Part shown: positions 17,975 to 42,465 of the stretch, one piece after another
How positions within the stretch are numbered: position 1 is the stretch's first letter
How the letters are laid out: each line of letters begins with the position of its first letter
Virus record (IMG/VR): IMGVR_UViG_3300031746_000019
Span: 1-58,517 of that record
Source: a virus
DNA length: 58,517 nucleotides
Strand: one strand, 5' to 3'
The notes under the pieces: generated by a model
Databases searched by the model: none
What the model was told of the DNA's origin: nothing
What the model saw: only the letters and a program-made list of their open reading frames with translations
Translations under genes and position numbers: made by a program

Positions 17975-17994
17975 TAGGACGGTGTGATCAAGAG

Positions 17995-18019
17995 GGGCTC
18001 TCCGTCTGGTGGAGAGCCC
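17995..18019 (-). terminator. Hairpin between Cys-rich gene and helicase
   Basis: A perfect nine-base inverted repeat GGGCTCTCC / GGAGAGCCC has a seven-base loop. On the minus strand the tail is CTCTTGATC. It lies 26 bases after the stop of the Cys-rich gene. A weaker T tail on the plus side (TTATT) means direction is not certain. Confidence 0.55.
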
Positions 18020-18045
18020 TTATTGTACATACGGCGTGCGTCCTG

Positions 18046-18393
18046 TCAACGGATGCGGTAGTTGCACCAGAAGCTGTACATCTCGTAGAACATGCCTCGG
18101 AGAAGACCTCCTGCGGCATCCTTGAAGAACCTCTCGACCGGCTTTTCTCCCTCGGAGACGACACCGGACTCGTAGTTCCCCGCGTCTGGATTGTGGTTGG
18201 AAGATCGATGACGGACGGGGACAGGCGCACTTGCACCTCCCCCACGGTTTTCGATCTCCGCCCGGCAGGAGTTGCGGAATCTGCATTGATTCGCACACTC
18301 TGGGTCCTGTGGATCGTAGCTTCTTGCGCTGCCCCAGCAGTTGGGCCTTTGACTTGAGTACGCACCTCCTCTAAGACTATCTGCATAGCCCAT
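18046..18393 (-). CDS. Cys-rich small protein, first gene of the replication arm
   Basis: The protein has 115 residues. A CWGSARSYDPQDPECANQCR segment and a following NSC give a CxnCxxxCxxxxxC pattern that looks metal-binding. A polar linker and an amphipathic C-terminal helix ending in WCNYRIR follow. GAGGAG lies five bases before the ATG, and promoter octamer GGTATAAG lies 39 bases upstream, so it is probably the first product of the leftward operon. Function unknown. Confidence 0.65.
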   Translation of the reverse strand: MGYADSLRGGAYSSQRPNCWGSARSYDPQDPECANQCRFRNSCRAEIENRGGGASAPVPVRHRSSNHNPDAGNYESGVVSEGEKPVERFFKDAAGGLLRGMFYEMYSFWCNYRIR

Positions 18394-18431: not shown

Positions 18432-18439
18432 CTTATACC
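18432..18439 (-). promoter_or_regulatory. Candidate phage promoter element GGTATAAG (copy 2)
   Basis: The minus strand reads CCGCCGGTATAAGTAATTTG in the divergent intergenic region, upstream of the leftward replication operon. It is an exact octamer match to the elements at 124-131, 26,198-26,205 and 38,099-38,106. Confidence 0.6.
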
Positions 18440-21989: not shown

Positions 21990-22960
21990 CAGCCATCTCT
22001 CCCCGATCGATGCTGGCGTTCGTTGACGAGCTTCAGAAGACTTCCGGAGTTCTCGACACGCTGGGACGGGCGGCTACGTCAACAGCAGGTATTTTACGTC
22101 CTGCATTGGCGGGAAGGTACGGACGGCAGCTATTGGTGGGTGCGGGGCTAGGAGCTGGAGGGAACATCCTCCAGCACAAGGTTCGTGGTGATCTCGATCA
22201 ACAGCGCGGTGGAGTTCTGGGGGCTGGACTTAGAGGGGCGGCGGCAGGAGGTGCAGTGGCTGGAGGTAGAATCTTGGCTACCTCTGAGGGTCGGAAGCGG
22301 GCACGTCAAGCCGCGAGCAACTTCTACGAGCGCGAGCTGTACGGTCTCACAGGCAAGGGGCGGGGTGATGCGCCCATGGATCTAGCCAAGGCGGAGCGCG
22401 TGGGTATTGTATCGGCTAATCCCACAGCTCAATCTATGTTGACTCGGGGCAGTGGGTCGTCTGGTCTGTCTGAGATAGGTCAGCATGGTCCTATTCAAGA
22501 AATGCACGGTCCCATGACACCAAAGCAATCTAAGGGTCTGGGAAAGCTTCTGAAGCAGCACGAAGCCAGTAAGGCGTTATTCGAGAAGGGTTGGGCATCT
22601 GCTCCGGGTGGTTTACACGGCATGGTCACGCACCCATTGGACTACGCCAAGCTCCGTTGGAACTCCATGGATGCTTGGGGCAAGGGCCTCACGGGGCTGG
22701 GTGTTGCAGGTGCTGCTCATGGTATGCTCAAGACGCCCTCGGAGGAGGACCCGAACAAGTACAAGAAGGGTCTGGGTCAGATGGCGGGGATGGTGGGCGG
22801 TGCGCTAGCTCCTGGGGCTGGTTGGATTGGACAGGGTCTCTTGGCTAGTGGGATCGGGAGTGTGGGCAAGGGGGTGGGAGCAGCAGCCGATATTGGAGTG
22901 CGTCGTTTGGGTAGAGTTGTCCCGCATGAGGAGCAGGCCCAGTGGCAGCCGACGCAATAG
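21986..22960 (+). CDS. Glycine-zipper protein with DELQK N-terminal signature
   Basis: This protein has 324 residues. The N-terminus MTAISPRSMLAFVDELQKTS carries the AFxDELxK signature seen in other small virion-region proteins. Several Gly/Ala zipper segments follow (LLVGAGLGAGGNIL, LGAGLRGAAAGGAVAGGRIL, GQMAGMVGGALAPGAGWIGQ), which could insert in membranes. It lies directly before the portal gene and overlaps it by 19 bases. A role as an internal or ejected virion protein is inference. Confidence 0.65.
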   Translation: MTAISPRSMLAFVDELQKTSGVLDTLGRAATSTAGILRPALAGRYGRQLLVGAGLGAGGNILQHKVRGDLDQQRGGVLGAGLRGAAAGGAVAGGRILATSEGRKRARQAASNFYERELYGLTGKGRGDAPMDLAKAERVGIVSANPTAQSMLTRGSGSSGLSEIGQHGPIQEMHGPMTPKQSKGLGKLLKQHEASKALFEKGWASAPGGLHGMVTHPLDYAKLRWNSMDAWGKGLTGLGVAGAAHGMLKTPSEEDPNKYKKGLGQMAGMVGGALAPGAGWIGQGLLASGIGSVGKGVGAAADIGVRRLGRVVPHEEQAQWQPTQ

Positions 22961-24978
22961 TAGGCCAGAGTGCGATGCGCTTCTCCCCCATCCGGGGGAG
23001 GATGAGCGGGGCGGGAGATTGGGGACTTCAGTACCCCAGTCCGTTCTTCGATATCGCCCACACCTACATGCCGGCCACCGTGAAGATGATGTTCCGGTGG
23101 TGCCGGTACTACTTCCTCGTCAACCCACTGATCAATGCCGTCGTCTTCAAGATGTCGGAGTACCCCATCACCGACATCATCTTCGACTCTGACAGACCAG
23201 AGCTGAAGCGGCTGTGGGGAGACTACCTATTCGATCACCTTCGGTATCGTTCATTCCAGATCGAAGTCGGGCTGGACTACCACACCTACGGCAACGCCCT
23301 GGTCTCGATCTTCTATCCCTTTGTGAAGTACCTCGAGTGTCCGAACTGCAAGTTCCGGAAGCCAGCTAGGGAAGTGGAGTACCGCTTCCAGAACTTCCAG
23401 TTCATCTCCTCCTGCAAGTGTGGCCACCATGGCCCCTTCAAGGTGGACGATCACTACGTCAAGGCACCTCGTGGTATCCGTCTACTCCGGTGGAACCCGG
23501 AGGACGTGGACATCAGGTACAACGAGATCACTGGGGACTACGAGTACTACTATGAGATCCCCACGACCCTCAAGAACGACATCATCATGGGTAAGAAGAG
23601 CACGGTGGAATCTGTGCCGCAGCTCTTCATCGAGGCGCTGAAGCAGAAGAAGGCGGTGGTGTTCTCCAAGGAGAACATCTACCACTTCAAGCGCCCGACC
23701 CTGGCCGGGAAGGACCGAGGCTGGGGAACACCCATGATTCTTCCTGTTCTGAAGGACACCTTCTACCTTCAGATCTTGCGTAAAGCACAGGAAGCCATCG
23801 CGCTCGAGCACATCGTCCCTCTCCGCATTCTCTTCCCACAGGCTGGCAGCGCAACGAGTGATCCATACACGACGGTGAACCTCCAGGACTGGAGGGACCA
23901 GGTCGCTTCTGAGATCCGCAGGTGGAGAGCCGACAACAACTACATGCCCATCATGCCTCTCCCCATAGGGAACCAGACTATCGGAGGAGACGGTCGCGCA
24001 CTCCTGCTCAGTCAAGAAGTACGTGTGTGGAGTGAGCAGATCGTAGCTGGCATGGGCGTACCTACTGAGCTCATCTTCGGTGGGCTCAGCTACTCTGGCA
24101 GCAACGTGGCACTCAGGATGCTGGAGAACACCTTCCTGGGCTATCTCCAAGATCACATCTCCCTGCTCAAGTGGGTTGTCAAAAGGACGTCTGCGTATCT
24201 TGGTTGGGCCACGGTGCGTACGCGCTTCAAGCCCTTCAAGATGGCGGACGATCTCCAGAGGAAGGCATACCTCTTCCAGCTCAACTCTGCGTCCAAGATC
24301 TCGGACGAGAGTCTCCTTGCGGACGCGGACTACGATGCGGAGAAGGAAGACTCGATCATGGAGCGGGAGGCTGCTCGTAGAGCAGCCGTCTTGAAGAAGC
24401 AACAGCTTCTCCAGGCAGAGATTCAGGGAGAGGCCGCCATGATCCAGGCAAAGTGGCAGGGCAAGGGCCAGGCTCATCAGATGAAGGAGCAGATGGCGCT
24501 CCAGAACGAGATGGGGAAGGACCAGGCCGCTTTCCAAGCTCAGATACAGTCTGACATGCAACAGCAGCAGATGGCTGCTCAGCAGGGTGGCGAGCCTCCT
24601 CCTCCGAACCCAGACATGCAGGCCTCTCCTCGTAGGCCAGATCTTTTGGAGCCCCCGAAAGAGATCACATCTCCGCTGACTCTTCGCTCCGTTCAGCCTG
24701 TCCCTCCCTCTACCACGGGGGAAGATCTAGTGGGGAAGCAGAACGTAGACCTACTTTTGATGGGGCGGAAGATCGCAGATAAGATCAGTGGCCTCGATCA
24801 TTTCCAAAGACCCCAGGCTCTGGCCCAGCTCAAGCAGCACAACCCAGAGCTGCATGATGTGGTGTTGGGGCTAATGATGAGCGGGGGCAACGGCCCCACC
24901 CAGGCTGGGTCCGACGCCGCACGTCCTCTGCCGGAGCAGAAGCCCGCACGACGTGGACCCGAGTCTGCGCTCATCTAG
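22942..24978 (+). CDS. Portal protein
   Basis: This protein has 678 residues. Portal features include an N-terminal NPLINAVVFKMSEYPITDII, a wing/stem region, WGTPMILPVLKDTFYLQIL, and GVPTELIFGGLSYSGSNVAL followed by a long helix. A zinc ribbon (CPNCKF ... CKCGHHG) is inserted near residues 133-160. The C-terminus is a Gln/Met-rich coiled coil and Pro-rich tail. Twelve copies would form the DNA channel. The GTG at 22,942 has GAGGAG eight bases upstream; ATGs at 22,975 and 23,002 are alternatives. Confidence 0.82.
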   Translation: MAADAIVGQSAMRFSPIRGRMSGAGDWGLQYPSPFFDIAHTYMPATVKMMFRWCRYYFLVNPLINAVVFKMSEYPITDIIFDSDRPELKRLWGDYLFDHLRYRSFQIEVGLDYHTYGNALVSIFYPFVKYLECPNCKFRKPAREVEYRFQNFQFISSCKCGHHGPFKVDDHYVKAPRGIRLLRWNPEDVDIRYNEITGDYEYYYEIPTTLKNDIIMGKKSTVESVPQLFIEALKQKKAVVFSKENIYHFKRPTLAGKDRGWGTPMILPVLKDTFYLQILRKAQEAIALEHIVPLRILFPQAGSATSDPYTTVNLQDWRDQVASEIRRWRADNNYMPIMPLPIGNQTIGGDGRALLLSQEVRVWSEQIVAGMGVPTELIFGGLSYSGSNVALRMLENTFLGYLQDHISLLKWVVKRTSAYLGWATVRTRFKPFKMADDLQRKAYLFQLNSASKISDESLLADADYDAEKEDSIMEREAARRAAVLKKQQLLQAEIQGEAAMIQAKWQGKGQAHQMKEQMALQNEMGKDQAAFQAQIQSDMQQQQMAAQQGGEPPPPNPDMQASPRRPDLLEPPKEITSPLTLRSVQPVPPSTTGEDLVGKQNVDLLLMGRKIADKISGLDHFQRPQALAQLKQHNPELHDVVLGLMMSGGNGPTQAGSDAARPLPEQKPARRGPESALI

Positions 24979-25434: not shown

Positions 25435-25908
25435 TCACCTTGCTATGCCCAAGAGGAGTTCTCCCTCCTCCACATCACCTTCTCCGAATCCTTCTGCGAG
25501 GCAATTTGGGCATAGAATTGCCTCGTTGTTCACGTCTTCGATAGGCACGAAGCAGGATGTTTCTTTGTCGTACCTACCCAGTTGGATACGAAACGCCCAG
25601 CGTGAGCGGTGGAAAGACCCCTCGCACAGATCGCACGCATGCGGAGCATTGCTACCCCATTCACATCCACGCATTCGATCTATGAGACAGTCTGCGTGGT
25701 AGTACTCCACCACCGCCTCCTTCTGGAGCTTCGTATCGTGCTCGTTGTCGTGGTCGGAGAGAAACACCAGCCAGTCTGGGTCCCTCTTCATGGGCTTGAG
25801 CTGGCCAGATTCGATCAAGACCAGCTCCCGTTCTTCGTCATCCCCAAAGCGTTCTCCGCAAAAGGGGCAGACAAAGCTCGGGTTGATAACAAAGATTGTC
25901 TCACTCAT
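25435..25908 (-). CDS. Zinc-binding hypothetical protein
   Basis: The protein has 157 residues from the ATG at 25,908. That ATG overlaps the upstream stop (ATGAGTGA) and has no Shine-Dalgarno, so it is likely translated by coupling. CPFCGERF, CDLCEG and CPNCLAEG give three CxxC knuckles, probably two zinc sites. The C-terminus is acidic. A nucleic-acid or protein binding adaptor is plausible. Confidence 0.65.
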   Translation of the reverse strand: MSETIFVINPSFVCPFCGERFGDDEERELVLIESGQLKPMKRDPDWLVFLSDHDNEHDTKLQKEAVVEYYHADCLIDRMRGCEWGSNAPHACDLCEGSFHRSRWAFRIQLGRYDKETSCFVPIEDVNNEAILCPNCLAEGFGEGDVEEGELLLGIAR

Positions 25909-26035
25909 TGTTGGGATGCTTTCGCGACCCCACTTCTCCGTCAGCCTGGAGGCTTCTGTGAATTGCAAAGGCCTCCGCAGCCATCTCCTCAAGGAAGACG
26001 GCCAGCGCGGCCAAGACGAAGATGTGAAGCAGCAC
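25901..26035 (-). CDS. Small single-pass membrane protein
   Basis: This 44-residue protein starts at a GTG that overlaps the TAG of the upstream acidic gene, with GAGGAG directly before. The first 16 residues (MLLHIFVLAALAVFLEEM) are a membrane segment and the rest is polar. It is too short for usual gene calling, but both ends are coupled to neighbours. Function unknown. Confidence 0.5.
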   Translation of the reverse strand: MLLHIFVLAALAVFLEEMAAEAFAIHRSLQADGEVGSRKHPNNE

Positions 26036-26148
26036 TACTCCTCGTCGCCGTCGTTGTTGTCCGTGTCAGAGTCCTCGATCTCTCCGTCTACCATCTCCTC
26101 CAGATCTTCGAGACTCGATCCCGTATCTTCGGGTTCTTCAGGCGGCAT
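26035..26148 (-). CDS. Small acidic protein
   Basis: The 37-residue protein is almost wholly Asp/Glu/Ser/Asn-rich (MPPEEPEDTGSSLEDLEEMV, then DGEIEDSDTD). AAAGGAG lies six bases before the ATG, and promoter octamer copy 3 lies 50 bases upstream. It is the first gene of the minus-strand island. Small acidic phage proteins often mimic DNA or bind host factors, but nothing specific is shown here. Confidence 0.6.
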   Translation of the reverse strand: MPPEEPEDTGSSLEDLEEMVDGEIEDSDTDNNDGDEE

Positions 26149-26197: not shown

Positions 26198-26205
26198 CTT
26201 ATACC
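26198..26205 (-). promoter_or_regulatory. Candidate phage promoter element GGTATAAG (copy 3)
   Basis: The minus strand reads CGTGGGTATAAGGAAGG, 50 bases before the acidic gene that heads the leftward island. It lies between that island and the divergent RNA polymerase gene. Confidence 0.6.
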
Positions 26206-26273
26206 CACGTTCGGGGTTGCTTGAGTGCCCATCGATCTGCTAGTTTAGACCAGCACACATAGGAGTCGGCCAC

Positions 26274-29200
26274 ATGGCTCGTCTTTCACCCGAAGAGGGG
26301 TTCGAGCTCCTCAAGGAAAGGGTGACTAAAACAGTCGATGGCCTCTTCCCCATCGTTGGGAAGAAGCACACCCTCGAATTGAAGAATGTCAACGTCGTCG
26401 ACGATCTCCACATTGACGACATTCGATCTCAGAAAGATGCGAAGGTCAATGGCCGCACCTGGGCCGTGCCCGTGGAAGCTACGGTCGCGCTTAAGGACAA
26501 CGTGACAGGCAAGGTAGTTGATCAGCAGAAGCTGAAGCTGATGAGCCTGCCAAAGTACACTCGTCGCTACTCCCACATTGTGGACGGGCAAGAGTATCAG
26601 ATCGATAACCAGTGGCGACTGAAGTCTGGGGTGTACGCTAGAGTAAAGGACAATGGGGAGCTCCAGTCTCAGTTCAACTTGGCCAAGGGTCGTGGTTTCA
26701 ATCTCGGATTCGATCCCCAGTCACGTCAGTTCACGATGGAGTACGGAACATCCAACATTCCATTGCGCCCACTGTTGCGGGAGCTTGGTGTTGGACAGGA
26801 CGAGATCGAGTCCAGGTGGGGCAAGGATATCGCGGGAGCTAACCCACACACTTCCGACCAGGCCTTGCTGAAGTTCTACAAAGCGGCCACAGGAAAGAAG
26901 GCTGATAGCGTAGATCAAGCACGTCTGCATCTACACGAGACGCTCGCAGGTACGGCTCTACTGCCCGCAACAACACGCATCACGCTGGGCAAGGAATACA
27001 AGTCTGTCACCGCTCCAGCGCTCATGGATGCTGCCACCAAGCTGCTTCACATCTCTCAAGGAAAGGCTCAGCCAGACTCACGAGACTCGCTGATGTTCAA
27101 GGAGCTGCACTCGACTGAGGACTTCATGTCCGAGCGCATCCAACAACACAGCCGGGACATCATGCGTAAGATCCAGAACAACTTAGATCGAAAGACCAAG
27201 GTACGGGAGGTGGTGGGCCCCGACATCTTCCAGAAGCCAGTACGCACGATGTACCGCACCACGCTGGCCAACATCCCAGAGCAGACCAACCCGCTAGAAA
27301 TGATCTCTGGTCAGTTCAAGACCACCATCACCGGGGAGGGCGGCGTCAAGAGCGCACATAAGATCTCAGAGGAAGCCAAGCTAGTTGATCCATCCCACCT
27401 CGGGTTCCTTGACCCTATCCACACACCTGAAGGTCAGTCCACGGGTGTCACTCTTCGTCTTCCTCTTGGTGTGAAGAAGCAGGGTCATGACGTACTGATC
27501 CGCATGCACAACATCAAGACTGGGAAGATGGAAAGCCTGAATCCTGAGCAGGCGATGACTACCAGATTCGTACTGCCGGACCAGGTAGAGTGGAAAGGGA
27601 GCAAGCCAGTACCCACAGGGAAGAGTGTCAAGATCAGTGGGGTGGGTAATGAGATCGTCCAAGGCTCTCTGAAGGACGCGCAGTACATCATGAAGGACCC
27701 CCTTCAGATGTTCTCGATCGCATCCAATCTGATCCCATTCATGCCTGCTGATCACCCGAACCGAAGCACGATGGCCGGTAGGCATATGGAGCAGGCCATT
27801 CCTCTTGCCGCTCGACAGCAACCGCTAGTGCAGAGCCTGGCCGGGAAGTCTTCCTTCGATCGCATCGTCGGCACCTTCGCGGGACATGACTCCCGGCATG
27901 ATGGAGAGGTTGTAAAGATCAAGCCAGACGGCATCACCATCAAGACGGCTGGAGGAAAGCTGATCGAGCAACAGATCTACGACAACTTCCCTCTGAATGC
28001 AGACAAGGCGTTCTTGCATTCCACCCCGCTCGTGAAGGTGGGGGACAAGGTGAAGAAGGGCCAGCCGCTGGCTGATACCAACTTCACCAAGGGGGGAGTC
28101 CTTGCGTTGGGGACGAACCTCCGCGTCGGGTACATGCCCTACAAGGGGTACAACTACGAGGACGGAGTCGTCATCAGTGAATCGGCGGCGAAAGACCTGT
28201 CCAGCGAGCACCTGCATAGAGCATCGCTTACGATAGATCCCAAGACCCACATTCTGGACACTGAGAAGTTCCGCTCCTATGTTCCTCAGGCTATGACTCG
28301 GGAGCAGGTCCGGAAGCTAGATGACGGAGGCGTCATCAAGCCCGGTGAGGTGGTACTCCCCGGAGATACTCTGATCGCTGCGCTGCGCAAGCGGCAGGAG
28401 CGGATGGAGGACAAGGAGCTTGCCCGTCTTCACAAGTCCTTGGTGAAGCCTTACCTCGACTCCAGTGTGAAGTGGGAGTCTGACTATCCGGGGGTCGTCA
28501 CGGAGGTCATACGTAGAGGTAAGGAGGCGATGGTCCACATCAAGACGCTCGAGCCCGCTGAGATCGGTGACAAGCTGGCTGGCAGGCACGGCAACAAGGG
28601 CATCATCACCAAGATCATTCCAGATCTTGAGATGCCCGCCACCAAGGATGGAAGACCCGTTCACGTACTGATGAACCCCACTGGCATACCTGGTCGAGTG
28701 AACCTGGGTCAGGTGCTGGAGACTGCGGCTGGAAAGATCGCGGAGAAGACAGGCTCAACGTACTACATCAAGAACTTCACCCCCAACACGGACCTCCACG
28801 CCGTGGTCACCGCAGACCTGAAGAAGCATGGGATCTCAGACAAGGAGGTCGTGGTAGACCCCACCACAGGACAAGAGCTCGGCTCAATCCTGGTTGGGCC
28901 GCAACACATCATCAAGCTCAAGCACCAGGTGGAGAAGAAGCTCGTCTCCAGAGCTGGCGGTTCCGGGTACACCTACGATCGGAACCTCGTACCCAAGGGC
29001 GGCGGACCTCATGGTGCCCAAGCACTTGGTCAGCTGGGGCTTTACTCCATGCTTGCACATGGAGCGAAGGCGAACCTGCGCGAGATGCAGACGATCAAGA
29101 GTGATGCAGCCCAGAGTGATGAGTTCTGGGCCGCCCTACAGGCTGGCGAGCCACTGCCTGCTCCGCGTCCTACGTTCGCGTACAACAAGTTCATCGCGTA

Positions 29201-32200
29201 CCTGAATGTCCTCGGGCTGAACGCCAAGAAGGACGGGAACAATCTTCAGCTCATCCCATTCACGGATAAACAGATCTTGGAGATGAGCAATGGTGCCATC
29301 AAGGACGCCGGGAAGATGGTCCGGGCCAAAGACCTGAAGGAGGAGAAGGGCGGACTGTTCGACCCTCATGTGACGGGGGGACATGACGGGACGAAGTGGG
29401 CGCATCTAACGTTGCCGGAGGCGTTGCCGAATCCGCTCTTCGAACGTGCGATCCAATCGCTTGTGGGTGTCACGGGCAAGCAGTACGACGACATCATCGC
29501 TGGAAGATTGGCCGTAGATCCAACCAAGGGGACCCTGACGAATGATACAGAGCGTCACCTAACCGCAGGTAAGGCGTTCTCTCGACTCCTCCAAGGCATC
29601 GATGTACCTAAGCAGCTCGAGGCAGCCAAGAAGGCGTTGGATAATCCCAACCTCAAGGGCAACCGCCTAGATCAAGCCAGCAAGAAGGTTCGATACCTAT
29701 CGGCGCTACAGAACGCAGGGTTGACTCCTCATGAGGCGTACATGACCAAGTACATCCCGGTCATACCGCCCATCATGCGTCCTCTGTCACAACGGCCAGA
29801 CGGGGAGATCAATTACGACGACCTGAACCATATGTACAAAGGCATTGGTCTGTCAGCCAGTAGGCTGGAGGGTGCATCTCCCCTACTTCCACAGAGCGAG
29901 CTGCACGAGATTCGTGCTGACATCTACGATGGGATGCGCTCATTGACTGGACTGGGTGGCCACGCCAATCGAGAAGCACGTGGCGTGTTGGACATCATCC
30001 AGGGGCATCGACCGGAGCGTGAGGGAGGAAAGGGGACGGGTCAGAAAGTTGGAAGCCCGAAGGAGGGATACTTCCAGAAGAAGCTGACTCAGCGGAAGCA
30101 AGATCTCTCCATGCGCTCCACCATTATCCCCGAGCCGGGGATGGGACTGGACGAGGTAGGGCTCCCAAGGTCGGCGGCGATGGAGATCTACAAGCCCTTC
30201 GTCATCCGGGAGATCAGGGGACTCACCGGGGTGAGCCCACTCGAAGCGCAGAAGCAGATCAAAGAAGGCGGCCCACTGGTATCCAGGGCGCTCGAGCGGG
30301 TGATGGAAGCTCGCCCTGTGCTCTTGAAGCGAGACCCCGTACTTCACAAGTATGGTATCCAGGCGTTCAAGCCCAGGATCGTAGCGGGAAAGGCCGTCCA
30401 GATCCATCCCCTCGTCACGTCCGGATTCAATGCGGACTTCGACGGGGATGCCATGTCTGCCTTCGTCCCAGTAGGAACAGACGCGGTAAGTGAAGCGTAC
30501 AAGATGCTTCCTTCACGCAATCTGTATAGCCCATCAACGGGCGATCTGATGTACCGACCCACCCACGAGTCACAGCTCGGACTTTACGGCCTGACCACTG
30601 TCGGCACGAAGACAGGCAAATCATTCAAGACAGTACCTGAAATGGAAGAGGCGCTTCTCAAAGGTAGCCTGAAACACAACGATCAGGTGAAGGTGGGCGC
30701 CTTCTCTTCCACTGCTGGTAGGTTTCTACTCTCCGCAGCATTGCCGGAAGCCATGCGAGCGGACTTCCTCAAGGGCAAGGAGCCGCTAGACGGAGGTGGG
30801 CAAGGCCGTCTACTCGAGCAGCTAGCCAAAGACCACCGGAATGACTACGGCATCGTCGTGAACAAGCTGAAGGACCTTGGGAACCGATGGTCCACCCAGT
30901 CCGCTTTCAGCATTGGAATGGAGGACACGAAGCCCGAGAGGGAACTGAGGGATTTAGTCTTGGACAAGGCCCATGCGGAGGTAGCACAGATCAAAGCCAA
31001 GACTCCTCATGAACGTGACGCCAAAGCCATACAGATCTATGGCAAGGCAACCCAGGAGTTGCAGAAGCAACTCAAGGCACTCCCCGATTCCCGAAGCAAC
31101 CTGTTCGTCATGTCCAGGGCTGGCATCAAGCCTGGAGACGATGCTCTCCGACAGATCAAAGTTGCCCCGATGTTGATCGCCAATGCCAAGGGCGAGACCA
31201 TCCCGCACCCTGTCACGAAGTCCTACTCGGAGGGGTTGGACATCGCTGACTACTGGACCTCCATGTCTGGGGCACGCAAAGGGATCATTCAGAAGGTGCA
31301 GCAGGTTCAGAAGCCTGGGTATATCTCCAAGCAGGTCATGAACTCGGTGATGGACAACATCATCGTCGATGATGACTGTGGTACCACGAAGGGCATCGCG
31401 CTGCATGTGGATGAGAAGGACATTTTAGACAGGCATCTTGCTGCGGACGTGAAGGTAGGCAAAAAGATCATCCCAGCCGGGACCCTAGTCACGCCAGATA
31501 TCCGGAGCACGCTTCGCAACAACAAGGTGGGGAGGGTTATGGTCCGCTCACCTCTTCGTTGCCAGCATGGTCCTGGGATCTGCAAGAAGTGTTTCGGTTT
31601 GACAGAAGATGGCAGGCATCCGGAGGCAGGCACCAACGTAGGAGTGATGGCGGGACAAGCATTGGGGGAGCGCGCCACACAGCTTGCGATGAAAGCGTTT
31701 CACACGGGGGGCACTGCTGCATCCAAGGAAGGTCTCGTGGATGAGTTTGAGCGGGTGCAGAACCTACTTCTCTTCCCGAAGACGCTGCCTGGATCTGCTA
31801 CGCTAAGTACCATGAGCGGGCGAGTGGAGAAGGTAGAGAAGGACCCAGCTGGAGGGCACAGTGTCTACATTGGGGGGCAGAGGCACTACGTCCCACAGAG
31901 TCGCGGTATCCCCGCCATTGAAGGGGAGATACTCAAGCGTGGGACTGAGGTGAAGAAGGGGGCCCCGATCTCTGGTGGTCCGATCAATCCCCACGAGATG
32001 CTACCTCTTACAGGTATCGAGCCGGTGCAGGGGTACCTAGCGGGGGAACTGCACAAGATCTATGGAGCGCACGGTATCCGCCGTAGGAACACGGAGGTTG
32101 TGGTAAAAGCGTTGACGAACCTCACCAAGATCGATGACCCTGGCAGTCATGGTGGGTTCATTCGCGGAGACTTTGCCCCGACATCTCTGGTCGCGAACAT

Positions 32201-32444
32201 CAACAGGCAGATGCCCAAGACGGGTAAGCCTGTGCTACACCAGCCTGTGCTCCGTGGTGTCAACGTCCTTCCTCTTGACATGCAGGAGGATTGGATCGCC
32301 AGAATGAATCACCAGAACATCACGAAGACTGTCACCGAGGCGGCGCAAGAGGGATGGACATCGAAGATGCACGGCAAGCATCCAATCCCACCTGTTGTGT
32401 ACGGGGCGGAGTTTGGCAAGGGCCCCAAGCACTGGGAGTACTGA
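26274..32444 (+). CDS. Fused beta-beta' multisubunit RNA polymerase in one polypeptide
   Basis: This protein has 2,056 residues. Beta-type motifs come first: DPIHTPEGQSTGVTLRL (about 380), GYMPYKGYNYEDGVVIS (about 620), GDKLAGRHGNKG (765). The beta end (ALGQLGLYSMLAHGAKANLR) leads near residue 1,000 into a beta'-type start (EEKGGLFDPHVTGG). Then come NADFDGD (1,386-1,392, catalytic magnesium), a zinc site DDDCGTT with CQHGPGICKKC, and GQALGERATQLAMKAFHTGG (trigger loop region, about 1,800). It is much shorter than the E. coli subunits together, and the beta' N-terminal zinc finger is missing. AGGAG precedes the ATG. No alpha, omega or sigma gene is in the window. Confidence 0.95.
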   Translation: MARLSPEEGFELLKERVTKTVDGLFPIVGKKHTLELKNVNVVDDLHIDDIRSQKDAKVNGRTWAVPVEATVALKDNVTGKVVDQQKLKLMSLPKYTRRYSHIVDGQEYQIDNQWRLKSGVYARVKDNGELQSQFNLAKGRGFNLGFDPQSRQFTMEYGTSNIPLRPLLRELGVGQDEIESRWGKDIAGANPHTSDQALLKFYKAATGKKADSVDQARLHLHETLAGTALLPATTRITLGKEYKSVTAPALMDAATKLLHISQGKAQPDSRDSLMFKELHSTEDFMSERIQQHSRDIMRKIQNNLDRKTKVREVVGPDIFQKPVRTMYRTTLANIPEQTNPLEMISGQFKTTITGEGGVKSAHKISEEAKLVDPSHLGFLDPIHTPEGQSTGVTLRLPLGVKKQGHDVLIRMHNIKTGKMESLNPEQAMTTRFVLPDQVEWKGSKPVPTGKSVKISGVGNEIVQGSLKDAQYIMKDPLQMFSIASNLIPFMPADHPNRSTMAGRHMEQAIPLAARQQPLVQSLAGKSSFDRIVGTFAGHDSRHDGEVVKIKPDGITIKTAGGKLIEQQIYDNFPLNADKAFLHSTPLVKVGDKVKKGQPLADTNFTKGGVLALGTNLRVGYMPYKGYNYEDGVVISESAAKDLSSEHLHRASLTIDPKTHILDTEKFRSYVPQAMTREQVRKLDDGGVIKPGEVVLPGDTLIAALRKRQERMEDKELARLHKSLVKPYLDSSVKWESDYPGVVTEVIRRGKEAMVHIKTLEPAEIGDKLAGRHGNKGIITKIIPDLEMPATKDGRPVHVLMNPTGIPGRVNLGQVLETAAGKIAEKTGSTYYIKNFTPNTDLHAVVTADLKKHGISDKEVVVDPTTGQELGSILVGPQHIIKLKHQVEKKLVSRAGGSGYTYDRNLVPKGGGPHGAQALGQLGLYSMLAHGAKANLREMQTIKSDAAQSDEFWAALQAGEPLPAPRPTFAYNKFIAYLNVLGLNAKKDGNNLQLIPFTDKQILEMSNGAIKDAGKMVRAKDLKEEKGGLFDPHVTGGHDGTKWAHLTLPEALPNPLFERAIQSLVGVTGKQYDDIIAGRLAVDPTKGTLTNDTERHLTAGKAFSRLLQGIDVPKQLEAAKKALDNPNLKGNRLDQASKKVRYLSALQNAGLTPHEAYMTKYIPVIPPIMRPLSQRPDGEINYDDLNHMYKGIGLSASRLEGASPLLPQSELHEIRADIYDGMRSLTGLGGHANREARGVLDIIQGHRPEREGGKGTGQKVGSPKEGYFQKKLTQRKQDLSMRSTIIPEPGMGLDEVGLPRSAAMEIYKPFVIREIRGLTGVSPLEAQKQIKEGGPLVSRALERVMEARPVLLKRDPVLHKYGIQAFKPRIVAGKAVQIHPLVTSGFNADFDGDAMSAFVPVGTDAVSEAYKMLPSRNLYSPSTGDLMYRPTHESQLGLYGLTTVGTKTGKSFKTVPEMEEALLKGSLKHNDQVKVGAFSSTAGRFLLSAALPEAMRADFLKGKEPLDGGGQGRLLEQLAKDHRNDYGIVVNKLKDLGNRWSTQSAFSIGMEDTKPERELRDLVLDKAHAEVAQIKAKTPHERDAKAIQIYGKATQELQKQLKALPDSRSNLFVMSRAGIKPGDDALRQIKVAPMLIANAKGETIPHPVTKSYSEGLDIADYWTSMSGARKGIIQKVQQVQKPGYISKQVMNSVMDNIIVDDDCGTTKGIALHVDEKDILDRHLAADVKVGKKIIPAGTLVTPDIRSTLRNNKVGRVMVRSPLRCQHGPGICKKCFGLTEDGRHPEAGTNVGVMAGQALGERATQLAMKAFHTGGTAASKEGLVDEFERVQNLLLFPKTLPGSATLSTMSGRVEKVEKDPAGGHSVYIGGQRHYVPQSRGIPAIEGEILKRGTEVKKGAPISGGPINPHEMLPLTGIEPVQGYLAGELHKIYGAHGIRRRNTEVVVKALTNLTKIDDPGSHGGFIRGDFAPTSLVANINRQMPKTGKPVLHQPVLRGVNVLPLDMQEDWIARMNHQNITKTVTEAAQEGWTSKMHGKHPIPPVVYGAEFGKGPKHWEY

Positions 32445-32797: not shown

Positions 32798-33193
32798 ATG
32801 GATAAGGTAGCAATGATGGAAGCGGCGTTCTTGGATGAGCTTGAGAAGATCGGTGTGGACTGGGGCGGGCTTGGGAAGACCCTGAGTGGCTGGGGGAGCA
32901 AGAACGTCCTTGGCTCCACCCTGGGTACGCACGCCAAGCGCTTCGCCGTCGGTGCTGTTCCCGGCGTGGTTGCTGGGGCTGCTGCTGGTGGACCGGGCCA
33001 TCGCCTGAGTGGAGCTGTGAAGGGCGGAGTGGTAGGCGGGGCCACTGGTGTAGCAGGAGGGGCTCTCCTCCAGCGCCGAGCCGCCAACCTAGCCAAGGGT
33101 ACCAAGGGGCTTAGTGCTTTTGAAGGTCCGCTACGCCCGGATGTGTCGCAGCAGGTTTCCAACATCAGTGGTCAGACACTACCGGGGATCTAG
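32798..33193 (+). CDS. Small glycine-zipper protein with AFLDELEKIG signature
   Basis: The protein has 131 residues, and AGAGG sits seven bases before the ATG. MDKVAMMEAAFLDELEKIG repeats the N-terminal signature of the gene before it. A Gly/Ala/Val zipper (AVGAVPGVVAGAAAGG, GGVVGGATGVAGGALL) occupies the middle. The two adjacent genes probably arose by duplication and diverged except at the N-terminus. Confidence 0.65.
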   Translation: MDKVAMMEAAFLDELEKIGVDWGGLGKTLSGWGSKNVLGSTLGTHAKRFAVGAVPGVVAGAAAGGPGHRLSGAVKGGVVGGATGVAGGALLQRRAANLAKGTKGLSAFEGPLRPDVSQQVSNISGQTLPGI

Positions 33194-33194
33194 G

Positions 33195-34478
33195 TTGGCA
33201 GATACCTTCTCCAATTCCAAGGCCACACGTGGCACAGGTGCCGCCGTTATTGAGACGGGCGTGATCGCCAACGTCAACGTTCGCAACATGACGGTGGACT
33301 GGGTCTCTCAGTACAGTGGCAAACAGATCACAGACCTCCAGGTGATGGCCCCCTACTTCCACTACAACAACGGGGAGGGTTTCACCTGCGTGCCTGAAGT
33401 GGGGGCGATCTGTTGCGTATGCTTCCCTTCTGATCAAGATTCCCCCTTCGTCATAGGATTTCTTGGTGGGCCAGAGCTCGAGGGGGCCGGGGTTGATAAA
33501 TACCTTGACGAAAAGCTGACCGACCCTGGCGTGGAGACTTCCACGGATATCACCCCTGGACAGACCACTTCGTCTGGGGGATCGACGGAGCCTGCGGAGA
33601 CCACCAACCCTACAAATGCCAGCTTCCGTGGTGGCAGGCCCATCCTGAACCCTGGAGACATGTACTGGCAGGGTCGGGATGAGAACTTTGTCATCCTGCG
33701 GCGGGGTGGTGTACTTCAGATTGGCGCCACCAACATCTGCCAGCGGGCCTACATTCCTCTCCTGAACTACATCCGGGACTTCAGTGAGAACTACGAGCTC
33801 AACACCGCAGCGGGCAGTCTGAACTGGTCAGTCCAGCGGCAGGAGAATGATCCAGAAGGGAACGCCCCGACCGAGTTCGTACTTACGACACGTGAGTTCG
33901 CTCAAGACAAGAAGGCATCAATCAAGCTCAGCATCGGCTCTCTAGAAGAGGCCGAGAAGCCACCAGGTGGCGACAAGACCTTCATTGAGCTGGTGATAGC
34001 ACCCCAGAAAATCAAGCCTGACACAGGTGAGGTAGAGGGGACCCCTGTCTACGTAGTCCGGCTGGACAAGGCCGGCAACTCCTACGTTATGCAGGCCAAG
34101 GACCGGACGGAAGAGATCAAGGGCAGCCTCACGACTACAATTTCTGGTTCTCGCACGACGAAGATTCAGGGTAGCGACACCACCAACATCACGGGTGATT
34201 CGGATATTAAGATTGGTGGAGTGAGTAAGGAGCAGGGATCTGTGAGCCAAGAGACTTGGTCCACATCCAAAGTGATCTCTGCCCCCCAATTACTACTTGG
34301 TGGGGCAGGTGCTTCCGAGCCAGCCGTACTTGGGCTAAAATTGGCAGCATGGCTGGCTGGCCACACGCACATGGTAAAAGCAATGCCTGACCCAGGTGGT
34401 GGTACGATACCAACACTGCCTCCAGTACAGGCAGCAGGCACCAAGGACTTGATCAGTAAGTCCATAAAGGTTCTCTAG
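33195..34478 (+). CDS. Baseplate spike protein (gp5/gpV/VgrG-like)
   Basis: This protein has 427 residues from a TTG (ADTFSNSKATRG follows). An OB-fold region is recognisable: TGVIANVNVRNMTVDWVSQY, then LQVMAPYFHYNNGEGFTCVP and EVGAICCVCFPSDQDSPFVI, the pattern of phage spike proteins. The C-terminal part has short Thr/Ser/Gly strand repeats (SLTTTISGSRTTKIQGSDTT), as in the triple-stranded beta-helix of gp5, and ends AWLAGHTHMVKAMPDPGGGT. It would form the membrane-piercing tip of a contractile tail. Confidence 0.72.
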   Translation: MADTFSNSKATRGTGAAVIETGVIANVNVRNMTVDWVSQYSGKQITDLQVMAPYFHYNNGEGFTCVPEVGAICCVCFPSDQDSPFVIGFLGGPELEGAGVDKYLDEKLTDPGVETSTDITPGQTTSSGGSTEPAETTNPTNASFRGGRPILNPGDMYWQGRDENFVILRRGGVLQIGATNICQRAYIPLLNYIRDFSENYELNTAAGSLNWSVQRQENDPEGNAPTEFVLTTREFAQDKKASIKLSIGSLEEAEKPPGGDKTFIELVIAPQKIKPDTGEVEGTPVYVVRLDKAGNSYVMQAKDRTEEIKGSLTTTISGSRTTKIQGSDTTNITGDSDIKIGGVSKEQGSVSQETWSTSKVISAPQLLLGGAGASEPAVLGLKLAAWLAGHTHMVKAMPDPGGGTIPTLPPVQAAGTKDLISKSIKVL

Positions 34479-37393: not shown

Positions 37394-37922
37394 GACAGTG
37401 GCAAAGAAGAAGCCGTTCTGGATGAGTGACGAGGAGTGGCAGCAGCGTGGACTGCCCGCGATGCCGAACTCTGAAGAGAACATGGCGGGGGCAGTCCAGA
37501 AGGGTGTCCCCGAGCTGAACTGGGTGGAGTGCAAGAGCATCATCGGAGCTTGGGTAGAGAAGGACGGGCTTCTTCTCTACCACTTCTACATGAGAGATCG
37601 GAAGCAGATCTTTGATGATGCTCAGAAGAGGATGGACGTCACCCGGGACATGGCTGCCCCAGGCATCATTCAGAGCGAGCAGCAGCGGATCTCTGCTGAG
37701 GCCAATGAGGCTCTTGAGAAGCATCCCTGGCCACCAGCCTTCAAGGATCTACTGGAGCGCGTCATCAAGGACTGCTTCCGATACCAGACCTTCAAGATCG
37801 ACTACTACCTCGAGGTGGACAGCTGGTCTGTGGCCATGCCCGCGCTCGAGACTCCGACGAAGTGGACGGCCGATCAATACGCCCAGCCCATCAAGAGGCT
37901 AGCAGATCAGCTTCAGAGCTAA
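37386..37922 (+). CDS. Hypothetical protein immediately before terminase, possible small terminase
   Basis: The protein has 178 residues with GGAGG six bases before the ATG, and it overlaps the previous gene by eight bases. It starts with a basic stretch (VETVAKKKPFWMSDEEWQQR) and is largely helical. The position just before the large terminase, and the structured DNA after it, fit a small terminase subunit, but no helix-turn-helix is clear. Low certainty on role. Confidence 0.6.
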   Translation: MVETVAKKKPFWMSDEEWQQRGLPAMPNSEENMAGAVQKGVPELNWVECKSIIGAWVEKDGLLLYHFYMRDRKQIFDDAQKRMDVTRDMAAPGIIQSEQQRISAEANEALEKHPWPPAFKDLLERVIKDCFRYQTFKIDYYLEVDSWSVAMPALETPTKWTADQYAQPIKRLADQLQS

Positions 37923-37927
37923 GTGAG

Positions 37928-38014
37928 GTCCGGCTTTCGCCGGACGACACACCGCTCTCGAGAGATCTGTGGGCGCTACCATGGCCGGCACACAGTAGTG
38001 TCCGCAGATCTCTC
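37928..38014 (-). ncRNA. Structured intergenic element, candidate small RNA or packaging site
   Basis: A GTCCGGC/GCCGGAC hairpin (37,928-37,945) has a GAAA tetraloop on the minus strand. A ten-base perfect stem (37,960-37,969 with 38,005-38,014, extendable by four more pairs) encloses a 35-base apex with an internal ACAC/GTGT hairpin. Promoter octamer copy 4 lies about 85 bases upstream on the minus strand and no minus-strand gene follows. A small RNA of about 170 bases is the simplest reading; a pac-like DNA structure is the alternative. Confidence 0.4.
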
Positions 38015-38098
38015 TAGCTGGGCGAGGAGATTGGGAGCGACTACGGACGCGCCGGCAATGAGTCCACGTTCTGTAGCCAGTTGACGGGACTCTGTACT

Positions 38099-38106
38099 CT
38101 TATACC
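38099..38106 (-). promoter_or_regulatory. Candidate phage promoter element GGTATAAG (copy 4)
   Basis: The minus strand reads CAAAGGTATAAGAGTACAGAG, directed away from the terminase gene into the structured intergenic element. The downstream GTACA resembles the sequence after copy 1 (GTACACAGAG). Confidence 0.5.
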
Positions 38107-38111
38107 TTTGA

Positions 38112-39950
38112 GTGAGCGGGGTTTCAGTGGCAGTCATCAGCCTGGCAGAAGCGGCCATACTCAAAGAAGCGAAGCTCATCCCCCTCTCTTGGTCCATCGA
38201 CCGGGGAAACTCTGAACCCTGGTTCGACTACGATGAGGAGGGCAACCCCACAGACTACGGGTTTGACTCCGAGCCGGAAGATCCAACCATCGAAGATCTG
38301 ATGGGCCTGGATGCATCCAAGTTCATATATGACATCAAGCCATCCCAATTCGCTGAGACTTCGATCCGTATCCCCGAGGCGGGGAGGATCGCAGACTTCA
38401 AGTTCGAGGGGCGTGACTACCTCCGGCGGATCTACGACACCAGTGCGGACAAGGTACTACTGAAGTGCGGACGTCAGGTTGAGAAGTCGACCACCTTGGG
38501 AAACAGGCTGCTCTGCTATTCCGCCCTGACCAACAACTTCCGATCCCTCTTCGTTGCTCCCTCTGCTGAACAAGCCAAGGTATTCTCGGTAGACCGTATC
38601 AAGGACGTCATCGAGAGCTCGCCACTCTTGAAGGCGTACACCACTACCAAGATCAACCAGGCGGTGTTCTTCAAGAAGTTCATCAACTTCTCACAGATCA
38701 GACTCCGCTATGCGTACCTCACGGCTGACCGAGTTCGTGGTATCCCAGCAGATCTGATCTGCATCGACGAGCTACAGGACATTCTCGTAGACAACATCCC
38801 GATCATCGAGCAGTGCGCCTTCCACTCTCACTACAAGCTCTTCATATACTCGGGCACCCCAAAGTCTGAGGACAACACGCTCGAGCACTACTGGCAGGAG
38901 TTCTCCACTCAGAATGAGTGGGTAGTTCCGTGTGATAGGCACGGCACGCCAAACAATCCCTCGTCTTGGCACTGGAACATCTTGGGGGAGAAGAACATCG
39001 GTAAGAAAGGATTGATCTGCGACCAGTGTAAGGAACCCATCAGCGCAGCTCATCCGATGGCTCGATGGGCCTCGATGAATCCCAGGTCGGAGAACAATGT
39101 AGAGAAGGTAACCTTCGAGGGCTATCGCATCCCCCAAATCATGGTCCCCTGGGTGGACTGGGTAGAAATCTTGGAAGCACAGGAGCACTACCCTCGCGCT
39201 CAGTTTATGAACGAGAAGCTCGGGCTATCCTACGACTCCGGGAATCGGCCCATCACGAAGGCTCAGCTTGAGGCTTGCTGCCGACCACACATTCGTCTCA
39301 CTGACATCGAGAACTTCCGCCGCCTGGCACAAGGCCGACCCATCTACGCTGGCATAGATTGGGGCACGGGAGAGCGGTCGTACACAGTGATCGCTCTCGG
39401 TGGGTACTTTGGATCGACCAACTTTTCCATCTTCTACGTTCATCGGTTTACCGGACCCGACCTCGAGCCAGATCGGCAGCTGGACCTCATCTCCCAAATG
39501 ATCACGCAGTTACAGGTACAGGTCATTGGCTGTGACTACGGCGGTGGCTTCCACAACAACAAGACCCTCATCCAGAGGTTCGGGGCAAACAAGGTCATCA
39601 AGTACCAGTACAACCCCAGGCAGAAGAAAAAGATCTACTGGGAGCCCAATCTCCAGCGGTACATGTGCCAACGCTCCGAAGTGATGAGTGACATGTTCTC
39701 CGCTCTCAAGAAGAAGCTGATCGATCTACCTTGCTGGGATGACTTCAGGGAACCTCACGGCCAAGACGTGCTCAACATCTTTAGTGAGTACAACAATCGC
39801 CTGAGGATGGAGGAGTTCAAGCATGCGCCGGGAAAGACAGACGATACGTTTCACGCCATCCTCTACTGTTTGCTCGCTTCGATGATCCAGCATCCGCGCC
39901 CCGATATCATCCAGGCGATCAAGGACACTGGTATGGGCAGGGGTACCTAG
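38112..39950 (+). CDS. terL: Terminase large subunit
   Basis: The protein has 612 residues. ATPase: GRQVEKST (Walker A, 120-127), ADLICIDELQ (Walker B with D219, E220), and LFIYSGTPKS (coupling motif III). Nuclease: AGIDWGTGERSY (D416), VIGCDYGGGF (D475), GKTDDTFHA (D577, D578). A CDRHGT...CDQC pair near 274-306 suggests a small zinc knuckle. It packages DNA through the portal and cuts concatemers. GTG at 38,112 and GTG at 38,127 are both possible starts, neither with a strong site. The stop shares CTAG with the convergent gene. Confidence 0.93.
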   Translation: MSGVSVAVISLAEAAILKEAKLIPLSWSIDRGNSEPWFDYDEEGNPTDYGFDSEPEDPTIEDLMGLDASKFIYDIKPSQFAETSIRIPEAGRIADFKFEGRDYLRRIYDTSADKVLLKCGRQVEKSTTLGNRLLCYSALTNNFRSLFVAPSAEQAKVFSVDRIKDVIESSPLLKAYTTTKINQAVFFKKFINFSQIRLRYAYLTADRVRGIPADLICIDELQDILVDNIPIIEQCAFHSHYKLFIYSGTPKSEDNTLEHYWQEFSTQNEWVVPCDRHGTPNNPSSWHWNILGEKNIGKKGLICDQCKEPISAAHPMARWASMNPRSENNVEKVTFEGYRIPQIMVPWVDWVEILEAQEHYPRAQFMNEKLGLSYDSGNRPITKAQLEACCRPHIRLTDIENFRRLAQGRPIYAGIDWGTGERSYTVIALGGYFGSTNFSIFYVHRFTGPDLEPDRQLDLISQMITQLQVQVIGCDYGGGFHNNKTLIQRFGANKVIKYQYNPRQKKKIYWEPNLQRYMCQRSEVMSDMFSALKKKLIDLPCWDDFREPHGQDVLNIFSEYNNRLRMEEFKHAPGKTDDTFHAILYCLLASMIQHPRPDIIQAIKDTGMGRGT

Positions 39951-40447
39951 ACTGCGATCAGGTTGTCTTTTAAGAGCGTCTGCGCCACTTGTGGCAGTTC
40001 CTGGGGTCTGTCAGATTTTTTGATCATTATCACGGCAGAGTCACGAAGGCTCTTTCGGCCCTTTTCCAGGTAGGCGTAGAGTTGCTTCAGAGTGCCGTTG
40101 CGCATGAATCCCTTTGCGCGCCTCACGGCGGTCATCATGCGGATGACCAAGTTGTAGAAGGGCTCCCAGGTGTGCTCGTAGTCGACAATCTCCTGGAGCC
40201 GGACAAACTCGAATTCAGAAAGCTGGCAGAAGAGCTCCGCCCAGAGTTCACATACCTCAGGCGCAAACTGACGTGCTTCAAGACCGAGGAGTTGGGTCGC
40301 ATCCCGGTAGTACTTGAGCAGCTCTTCATCTGGGGCCGTTCGCAGCTTGGACAGCTCCAGCCCAGCTACACGTAGGAGAAAGGTGACCTGGGACTCAAGG
40401 TTGGAGATACGGGCTTCCAGCTTTCTGATCTCAAAGTCTTTCTCCAT
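39947..40447 (-). CDS. Hypothetical coiled-coil protein, convergent with terminase
   Basis: This protein has 166 residues. An N-terminal coiled coil (FEIRKLEARISNLESQVTFL) is followed by a helical domain (RQFAPEVCELWAELFCQLSE) and a basic C-terminal region. It is a single minus-strand gene within the late region. The minus-strand upstream sequence shows TTGTGA, 17 bases, TAGTAT, a sigma70-like promoter. Function unknown; a regulator of late expression or packaging would fit the place, but that is a guess. Confidence 0.6.
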   Translation of the reverse strand: MEKDFEIRKLEARISNLESQVTFLLRVAGLELSKLRTAPDEELLKYYRDATQLLGLEARQFAPEVCELWAELFCQLSEFEFVRLQEIVDYEHTWEPFYNLVIRMMTAVRRAKGFMRNGTLKQLYAYLEKGRKSLRDSAVIMIKKSDRPQELPQVAQTLLKDNLIAV

Positions 40448-40518: not shown

Positions 40519-40548
40519 TTGACAGTGCTGCTACAGCGAATCTATGAT
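40519..40548 (+). promoter_or_regulatory. Sigma70-like promoter for the capsid-region operon
   Basis: TTGACA (40,519-40,524), an 18-base spacer, and TATGAT (40,543-40,548) lie just before the first gene of the capsid cluster. The predicted transcript would start within about ten bases of the ribosome binding site, giving a very short leader. A divergent promoter for the gene at 39,947-40,447 overlaps this region. Confidence 0.55.
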
Positions 40549-40565
40549 TGACCAAAGGTGAGAGC

Positions 40566-41480
40566 ATGAGCGATCAGGGCGCGATTCCCCTTGGACTGGC
40601 CCAGCAGCGGGCCGCAAAGCATGTTGACCCCGAACAGCTAGAATCCATGGGAAAGCGCGCAGCCGCTCTCTATGGTGAAGGCTCACACACCCTGAACGAT
40701 GCGGTCGTGGAAATCCTCAAGACCGCCAAGCTGGCCCCTGAGCAGGTGAAGCGGGTCTGCGAGTTCGCCAACACCTCGGCCTACCTCCGGGAGTTTGAGA
40801 AGGCCGGGGAGATGCGTAACATCACCTTCGACAATGGGCCCGCCGACCCGTCCTACATCCTGAAGGAGCTCAACGATGGGTCTGCTCCCGCTGTTCATCA
40901 GGTCAAGACAGCCGGGTACGCCCCGCCCACCACTAGCTACAAATCCCATGCTTCGGATGCTCTTCTGGCAGAAGCCTTCGGGGTTGACGGTGGTCTGTCC
41001 AAGGTAGCTTCCATCGATCACGCAGCTCGTGCCGATCGTGGGGAAGAGGTCGCAGATCTCAAGATTCGTCTGGAAGGAGTCCACGACGACATCATGAGCA
41101 AGTACGCTTCTTCAGGCGTACTGCTGGGGGACGTGAAGAAGGACCTCTGCGAAGCTACCCGACAAGAGATCATGAACGGTGCGTCCCTGGGGGACGTGGT
41201 CTCTGCTTGGTCTGCCTTCTCCCCGCGTACCTCCTTGACGAAGGAGGCCATGGATCTAGTCCGGAGCCATCTGGCTGAGACCGATACGATGGGGGTGCGT
41301 GACCAGGAGAAGTCACTAGTGAAGGTCGCCAGTGGAAGCTCCCCGAACCCAGCACATCCGATCGTAGATCGATTCATCGCCTTCACGAAAGTCGCCACGG
41401 AGCACCGCAAGCTGGAGCACGCGCTGGATATCGTGAAGGAGCAGCTCCAGGATGTGAACGCGCAACTGAGGAGTCTGTAA
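40566..41480 (+). CDS. Hypothetical capsid-region protein
   Basis: This protein has 304 residues from the ATG at 40,566, with AAAGGTGAG upstream; an in-frame TTG 18 bases earlier is less likely. It is helical and charged, with several K-[VT]-A tripeptides (VKTAG, SKVAS, VKVAS, TKVAT) and a C-terminal coiled coil ending NAQLRSL. It may be an internal or scaffold-associated protein. It overlaps the next gene as TAATG. Confidence 0.6.
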   Translation: MSDQGAIPLGLAQQRAAKHVDPEQLESMGKRAAALYGEGSHTLNDAVVEILKTAKLAPEQVKRVCEFANTSAYLREFEKAGEMRNITFDNGPADPSYILKELNDGSAPAVHQVKTAGYAPPTTSYKSHASDALLAEAFGVDGGLSKVASIDHAARADRGEEVADLKIRLEGVHDDIMSKYASSGVLLGDVKKDLCEATRQEIMNGASLGDVVSAWSAFSPRTSLTKEAMDLVRSHLAETDTMGVRDQEKSLVKVASGSSPNPAHPIVDRFIAFTKVATEHRKLEHALDIVKEQLQDVNAQLRSL

Positions 41481-41790: not shown

Positions 41791-42465
41791 ATGAACCCAG
41801 TCGAAGAGTTCCTCGAGCTACAGAAGCAAGCGAACTGGCTTGGTGACTTCGGCAGGGCTCTGGTTGGTCATGGCCCGGGACAGGGAGGTTCCGCCTCGAC
41901 TGCTGCGCAGCTCTTTCAGGCTCCCCTTGCCGCCGCTGCGATAGCGGGTACTGGGCTAGGGATCAGCAAGGGCGTGGGAGCGATCAGAGAGCATTTTGGT
42001 AAGGCTCGGGACTTCCAGAGGATGGTTGAGGAGAACCCATCGCTTCAGAAGGAAGACGCCCGGCACGTCCAGATGCTCTACAACTCTCTGCGTCGCCTCT
42101 CTCCCACGATGGCCAAAGATCCTCTTCTGGCTGGCTCATTCGTACGAGACTCAATCCGCTTCGGACCCGAAGGAGGTCCAGCCGTAGCTCCAAGTACGGC
42201 TAAGATGCTTGCGGATACAGAGAAGGGTGTGGCCGGGGCTGGGAAGAGACATCCAATTCTCGATCTCCTGGGCGGTGTGGGCCGTATAATGCCTCCGCAA
42301 CAGAAACACGAGCTCCCACCGCAGCTAGTAGGACATATCGAAACTCGACGTAATCTCCCAGGGCGCTCTGGAACAATTAGCGCAAAGCAGAACGTATACG
42401 ATCCAGCCGAATGGAACCGCATGTCGGCCGCCGCCGCCGGGGTAGCAGGCCAAACTAACCCATGA
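41791..42465 (+). CDS. Glycine-zipper protein upstream of prohead protease
   Basis: The 224-residue protein begins MNPVEEFLELQKQANWLGDF, a short amphipathic N-terminus comparable to the DELxK set. An Ala/Gly segment (LAAAAIAGTGLGISKGVGAI) and a polar, Pro-rich C-terminal half follow. It overlaps the protease gene by four bases. Function unknown. Confidence 0.6.
   Translation: MNPVEEFLELQKQANWLGDFGRALVGHGPGQGGSASTAAQLFQAPLAAAAIAGTGLGISKGVGAIREHFGKARDFQRMVEENPSLQKEDARHVQMLYNSLRRLSPTMAKDPLLAGSFVRDSIRFGPEGGPAVAPSTAKMLADTEKGVAGAGKRHPILDLLGGVGRIMPPQQKHELPPQLVGHIETRRNLPGRSGTISAKQNVYDPAEWNRMSAAAAGVAGQTNP

Follow-up and report, generated by a model that had tools for sequence, protein, structure and literature searches.

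The virus record IMGVR_UViG_3300031746_000019 of IMG/VR, analysed here as a stretch of 58,517 nucleotides (the window), comes from a virus of bacteria and encodes both large subunits of a bacterial-type RNA polymerase (RNAP), beta and beta', as a single chain. The gene (26274..32444, + strand) starts with ATG and runs through 2,056 codons with no internal stop. Its relatives belong to a large, mostly uncultured phage family in which, as judged from the reading frames, the fusion is the rule, the active site is conserved, and each genome appears to carry one RNAP and one sigma factor found throughout the family. We are inclined, by a modest degree, to see the polymerase as an early, host-transcribed enzyme outside the virion, which together with the phage sigma would drive middle genes from a class of promoters containing GGTATAAG. 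A wider proposal, which we hold to be evenly balanced, is that the family runs a viral transcription system parallel to that of the cell, started by the host RNAP and conserved across very different hosts, with a single-chain, alpha-free core, a dedicated sigma and a promoter class GNAA-N16-GGTATAAG. If this is true, the enzyme would be a minimal, sigma-dependent bacterial-type RNAP made of one chain, with no alpha, one zinc ribbon fewer and no flap tip, and would bear on how an RNAP can do without alpha, on how sigma docks without a flap tip, and on the evolution of a deep-branching viral RNAP.

A single beta-beta' chain and its family

A previous sequence-only reading had described one 2,056-residue frame with the landmark motifs of both subunits, joined near residue 1,000, and both points hold. 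Pfam domains follow one another along the chain in the order Rpb2_2, Rpb2_3, Rpb2_6 (4e-61) and Rpb2_7, then Rpb1_1, Rpb1_2, Rpb1_3 and Rpb1_5. Bacterial profiles match at about 1e-100 or better, NCBIfam rpoC_TIGR at 2e-148, and the beta/beta' fusion model PRK09603 at 1e-156, yet under that model's cut-off. The beta part (residues about 1-985; 26274..29230, +) comprises the protrusion/lobe, the fork and the double-psi barrel with K767LAGRHGNKG776. The beta' part (29290..32441, +) comprises the clamp helices, retained but diverged in sequence, N1386ADFDGD1392, the trigger loop TQLAMKAFHTGG and a zinc site of four cysteines, C1702 and C1763-x6-C1770-x2-C1773, which is recognised as the bacterial Zn2 site because of the fourth cysteine at 1702. 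Homology to beta stops near residue 985 and homology to beta' begins near residue 1000, as the domains found in Pfam, NCBIfam and PDB searches also show; the subunits are bridged by about ten residues, neither the C-tail of bacterial beta nor the N-tail of bacterial beta' remains, and the junction (residues about 985-1005; 29226..29290, +) is almost linker-free in both alignment and model. Structure prediction was done on the two halves rather than on the whole chain, and the AlphaFold models (pLDDT 83.8 for beta and 79.3 for beta') had as their top Foldseek matches in the PDB bacterial beta (best E 7e-74) and beta' (best E 8e-65).

The catalytic lysines (equivalents of K1065 and K1073) are invariant in the aligned set and the aspartate triad is kept; by these residues and by its predicted bacterial-type folds, the chain is classed as a double-psi-barrel (multi-subunit-type) polymerase. 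Most rifampicin-contact positions are changed in the alignment, and the phage enzyme is accordingly predicted to resist the drug. Two bacterial features are missing from the phage chains: the Zn1 ribbon at the N-terminus of beta', and the tip of the beta flap, on which sigma region 4 docks; the flap itself is present. These losses, together with that of the alpha partner (see below), might be expected of an RNAP that was captured, has stopped transcribing and persists as a degenerate or auxiliary protein. We find such a fate scarcely credible, since the main clades of the family keep the Zn2 site along with the two lysines and the aspartate triad of catalysis, and the frame is open in relatives down to 37% identity.

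The frame is also sound as a piece of DNA. A second IMG/VR contig (L005), from another sample, carries an RNAP gene that is 100% identical, and this contig and dozens of diverged relatives with open frames rule out a frameshift, a chimera or an assembly artefact; no stop or shift lies between the halves, a point on which the fusion had been considered vulnerable. A profile scan of IMG/VR found relatives encoded on 271 stretches, and the frames were surveyed in the best 80 loci, some of whose contigs are near copies of each other. In these loci 67 of the 68 full-length relatives, 37-100% identical to the window and on contigs of up to 198 kb, have a single open frame; the one with a broken frame is L111, in which the break, through an error or a real split, falls near query residue 679. 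Two longer contigs are syntenic with nearly all of the window, which is therefore probably a fragment of a genome of about 170-200 kb.

Trees, read as unrooted, were built over the alignable range of beta and beta' with bacteria as the cellular group. In these trees the window falls within the fused clade, with L011 as its sister, and chains of the type found in Vibrio phage D69 and Salmonella phage Arash are attached to that clade, while bacteria lie beyond a branch with support 1.00 / SH-aLRT 100. Queried with D69, IMG/VR returned one relative only. In a search of genome contigs, the best 80 matches were cellular RNAPs without exception, none above 30% identity, and gave no host link.

In-frame inteins interrupt the RNAP chains of L026 (9986-20773), L012, L017, L018, L023, L025, L030 and L031, at seven sites in or beside conserved motifs: HTPEG, GDKL/AGRHGNKG, GNKGI, MQTIK, NADFDGD, the zinc site and the trigger loop. 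They carry LAGLIDADG domains and number at most four per chain, the chain with four reaching 3,596 codons; the RNAP copy in the window has none. Their placement at motifs around the active site is a second unusual feature. Intein/Hint domains are also present elsewhere in the window, in a helicase (15440-17974, -) and in a large protein of the structural block (42462-45587, +).

Sigma, alpha and two promoter classes

The enzyme had been described as having no visible sigma or alpha. This stood for the window, in which profile and homologue searches for a hidden sigma or alpha were negative, and it stood for alpha more widely, with no alpha-like protein in 21 records (the control was detected in 13 of 14 genomes). 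It did not stand for sigma in the lineage. Every near-complete relative examined encodes one conserved sigma70-family protein of roughly 250 amino acids per genome, the carriers being G004, G006, G010, G014, G016, G022, G024, G029, G030, G033, D69 and Arash, and the matches including SigA (2.9e-10, phmmer against the PDB) and phrog_351 (1.4e-16). The gene falls beyond the span of the window, mostly on the RNAP strand and at a distance of about 54-75 kb upstream of RNAP, and by this genomic comparison the absence of sigma from the window is a window effect only. No match was found in the 118-kb contig G008, which is possibly cut before the sigma gene, and D69 and Arash encode a second, different sigma. 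RNAP itself is present once in each of 16 contigs of 137-198 kb; a second copy was considered and none was found in them.

Unsupervised k-mer counts upstream of genes brought out GGTATAAG in G016, G022, G024 and G029, the variant GTTATAAG in D69 and, more weakly, GGGATAAG in G033. The upstream copies observed were 11 against 0.2 expected in G016, 12 against 0.1 in G022 and, for the variant, 13 against 0.3 in D69. The window has 4 copies of GGTATAAG against 0.33 expected (0/100 shuffles), and in Arash the motif lies ahead of annotated leftward genes. Across 88 sites, A is found at both -18 and -17 in about 82%, giving a -35-like GNAA and the consensus GNAA-N16-GGTATAAG, a class with the geometry and spacing of sigma70 promoters and with G instead of T as the last -10 base. 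The motif tracks the phage lineage over Vibrio and Salmonella phages of 45-61% GC, and tracks neither host nor GC. Given this distribution, the simplest reading is that the motif serves as a promoter for the phage enzyme with its sigma.

One copy in the window (26198..26205, -) stands back to back with the RNAP promoter described below, and it is kept near RNAP: allowing <=1 mismatch, the motif is found upstream of the gene on the leftward strand in 54 of 59 relatives and on the other strand in 0. The first leftward gene after it is a very acidic 37-amino-acid open reading frame (ORF) with a good Shine-Dalgarno sequence (26035..26148, -). A further copy (18432..18439, -) lies 46 nt upstream of the ATG start codon of 17988-18386, at the head of the leftward block of replication genes, and another is near the contig end (124..131, -). 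The replication block also holds a uracil-DNA glycosylase family protein and an HU-type DNA-binding protein (14348-15052, -, and 5593-6036, -, respectively). The copy upstream of TerL (38099..38106, -) has counterparts in over half of the relatives with which the window was compared; no convincing ORF follows it (window about 37900-38099, -), hairpins such as GCCGGCGAAAGCCGG lie in the same interval, and a short non-coding RNA is possibly made from it. Rfam and tRNA scans were empty.

A second class of sites has the form of host sigma70-type promoters. One of these, TTGCTT-N15-TGC-TAGTTT (26217..26246, +), ends 27 nt before the ATG of the RNAP gene. The pattern TTGNNN-N14-16-TGN-TANNNT precedes this gene in 19 of 62 relatives against 0.53 expected, a count that is not blind, the pattern having been framed after viewing some of the same sequences, and that has the opposite strand (0) and other genes (portal 1/51, hub 0/55) as its controls. 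The heptamer TCTGGTA upstream of RNAP had been a candidate late promoter and was rejected, as it is not genome-wide and is part of the host-type promoter instead. Another conserved host-type promoter, TTGACA-N18-TATGAT (40519..40548, +), precedes the gene annotated from 40548, and a divergent pair of such promoters is conserved near 40.45-40.55 kb. The divergent genes themselves (39947-40447, -, and 40548-41480, +) are without a known family, have host-type promoters in about ten relatives, and are candidate immediate-early host-takeover genes.

Time and place of action

An early, non-virion polymerase is favoured because the RNAP gene has its own conserved host-type promoter, unlike the portal and hub genes. 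The host RNA polymerase would probably transcribe the gene early from this promoter. With no alpha dimer encoded, the protein would fold with the aid of the fusion, which would do part of the assembly work of alpha. The fused core would then pair with the sigma70-family factor encoded elsewhere in the phage genome, and core and sigma together would transcribe the genes behind GNAA-N16-GGTATAAG, chiefly those of leftward replication and small leftward genes in the structural block. Carriage in the virion would not be needed. The self-sufficient enzyme proposed at first does not agree with these data, given that relatives encode a sigma and that host-type promoters precede both the RNAP gene and the divergent pair.

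The gene had also been placed between portal and spike, and this location is retained, both neighbours being weak matches: a portal upstream (22942..24978, +; phrog_2833, 6e-5), with the Arash portal annotated at the same place, and a gp5-type baseplate hub/spike downstream (33114..34478, +; profile match, 6e-4). Such a position, kept in Arash and D69, would suit a polymerase that is synthesised late, alongside the structural proteins, enters the particle, is injected together with the DNA and transcribes the GGTATAAG genes first, like the enzymes of N4, phiKZ and P23-45; the phage-specific promoter at replication genes and the single RNAP per genome would suit it as well. We nevertheless regard a virion polymerase as rather unlikely. 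The RNAP-specific host-type promoter and the other conserved host-type promoters suggest that the host RNAP starts the programme, and position alone is weak evidence because leftward non-structural genes share the interval. Between portal and RNAP there is also a Cys-rich, zinc-finger-like leftward ORF (25435..25908, -), whose frame is present, weakly, in 14 relatives.

A different division of labour would have the phage sigma redirect the host RNAP to GGTATAAG and leave other (late) promoters to the fused enzyme, or give that enzyme another factor. Such a scheme appears to us improbable. It would agree with the sigma70-type geometry of GGTATAAG and with the missing flap tip for sigma region 4, and phage sigmas that recruit the host RNAP are known (PMC7824862). 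However, no distinct class of late promoters that the fused enzyme could read came to light, and the second sigma in D69 and Arash indicates that the roles are not one to one.

Several observations weigh against an early polymerase working with the phage sigma, which we continue to prefer. The host-type promoter is recognisable in about a third of the relatives only, and the late-promoter search gave no late motif. Structural genes surround the RNAP gene, a setting common for virion-RNAP genes, and the sigma gene of relatives is apparently among tail genes, which fits late expression. Furthermore, with the flap tip missing, the mode of sigma docking would be puzzling, and the motif counts rest on related genomes and simple ORF calls.

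Comparison with known systems

Natural beta-beta' fusions with the junction at the same place are described by the RpoB-RpoC models PRK09603 and PRK14844, which we take to be those of Helicobacter and Wolbachia; these are cellular proteins of about 2,850 amino acids with alpha present, and the window chain stays under the family cut-offs. Among phages, the virion and non-virion RNAPs of phiKZ and AR9 are also multi-subunit-type enzymes without alpha. That group has two enzymes, each spread over 4-5 genes, and no sigma70 homologue (PMC7824862, PMC13282480), whereas the family of the window has one chain in one copy per genome, in line with the contrast drawn earlier between a compact fused form and the multi-gene phiKZ type. 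The RNAPs of crAssphage, YonO and P23-45 resemble it in having both catalytic barrels on a single chain but are extremely diverged, the crAss enzyme having no match to COG0085/0086 according to Weinheimer and Aylward (PMC7481178), while the window chain matches bacterial profiles. Cobetia phage Carin-5 and Yersinia phage GN1/YerA41 have alignable beta and beta', with an adjoining sigma gene in Carin-5, but as separate genes, beta' then beta, near DNA polymerase, and the main branch of the tree separates them from the fused chains.

The multi-subunit-RNAP-encoding Caudovirales (mReC) of Weinheimer and Aylward 2020 (PMC7481178) are likewise tailed phages that have not been cultured, many of them from IMG/VR. 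Their beta and beta' can be aligned with the cellular subunits, form a clade apart from cellular RNAP and are encoded among structural genes; the RNAP clade studied here is distinct from cellular RNAP as well, with bacteria only as the cellular comparison. The main text of that paper reports no fused chain, sigma, inteins or promoters for mReC. The mReC capsid family is PF07068, whereas for the window capsid (49095-50216) Pfam gave nothing at 0.05, phrog_2522 being its only match; the window TerL matches the mReC family PF03237 at 8e-4, below the cut-off, and PF05876 better, at 8e-13. Kinship with the published mReC phages is probable. Our literature search, which had subscription papers and supplements outside its reach, found no description of a fused chain in this lineage.

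Phage N4 had been offered as the comparison, and the nearest systems are instead the uncultured fused-RNAP family and phages of the D69/Arash type. The nearest isolates are Vibrio phages D69, D148 and D181 and Salmonella phage Arash, at ~31-33% identity. They share with the window an RNAP after the portal gene, beta fused to the N-half of beta', a conserved sigma homologue and a promoter motif that is the same or a one-base variant. They differ in that beta' is cut at about query residue 1477 and its C-half has a gene of its own, in that the trigger loop is diverged, and in the second sigma. The beta' split of this type (L001, L002, L003, L128) coincides in position with that between cyanobacterial rpoC1 and rpoC2. 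With such isolates at hand, Arash on Salmonella Typhimurium ATCC 14028 and the Vibrio phages, the timing, virion content and promoter use of the family can be put to the test.

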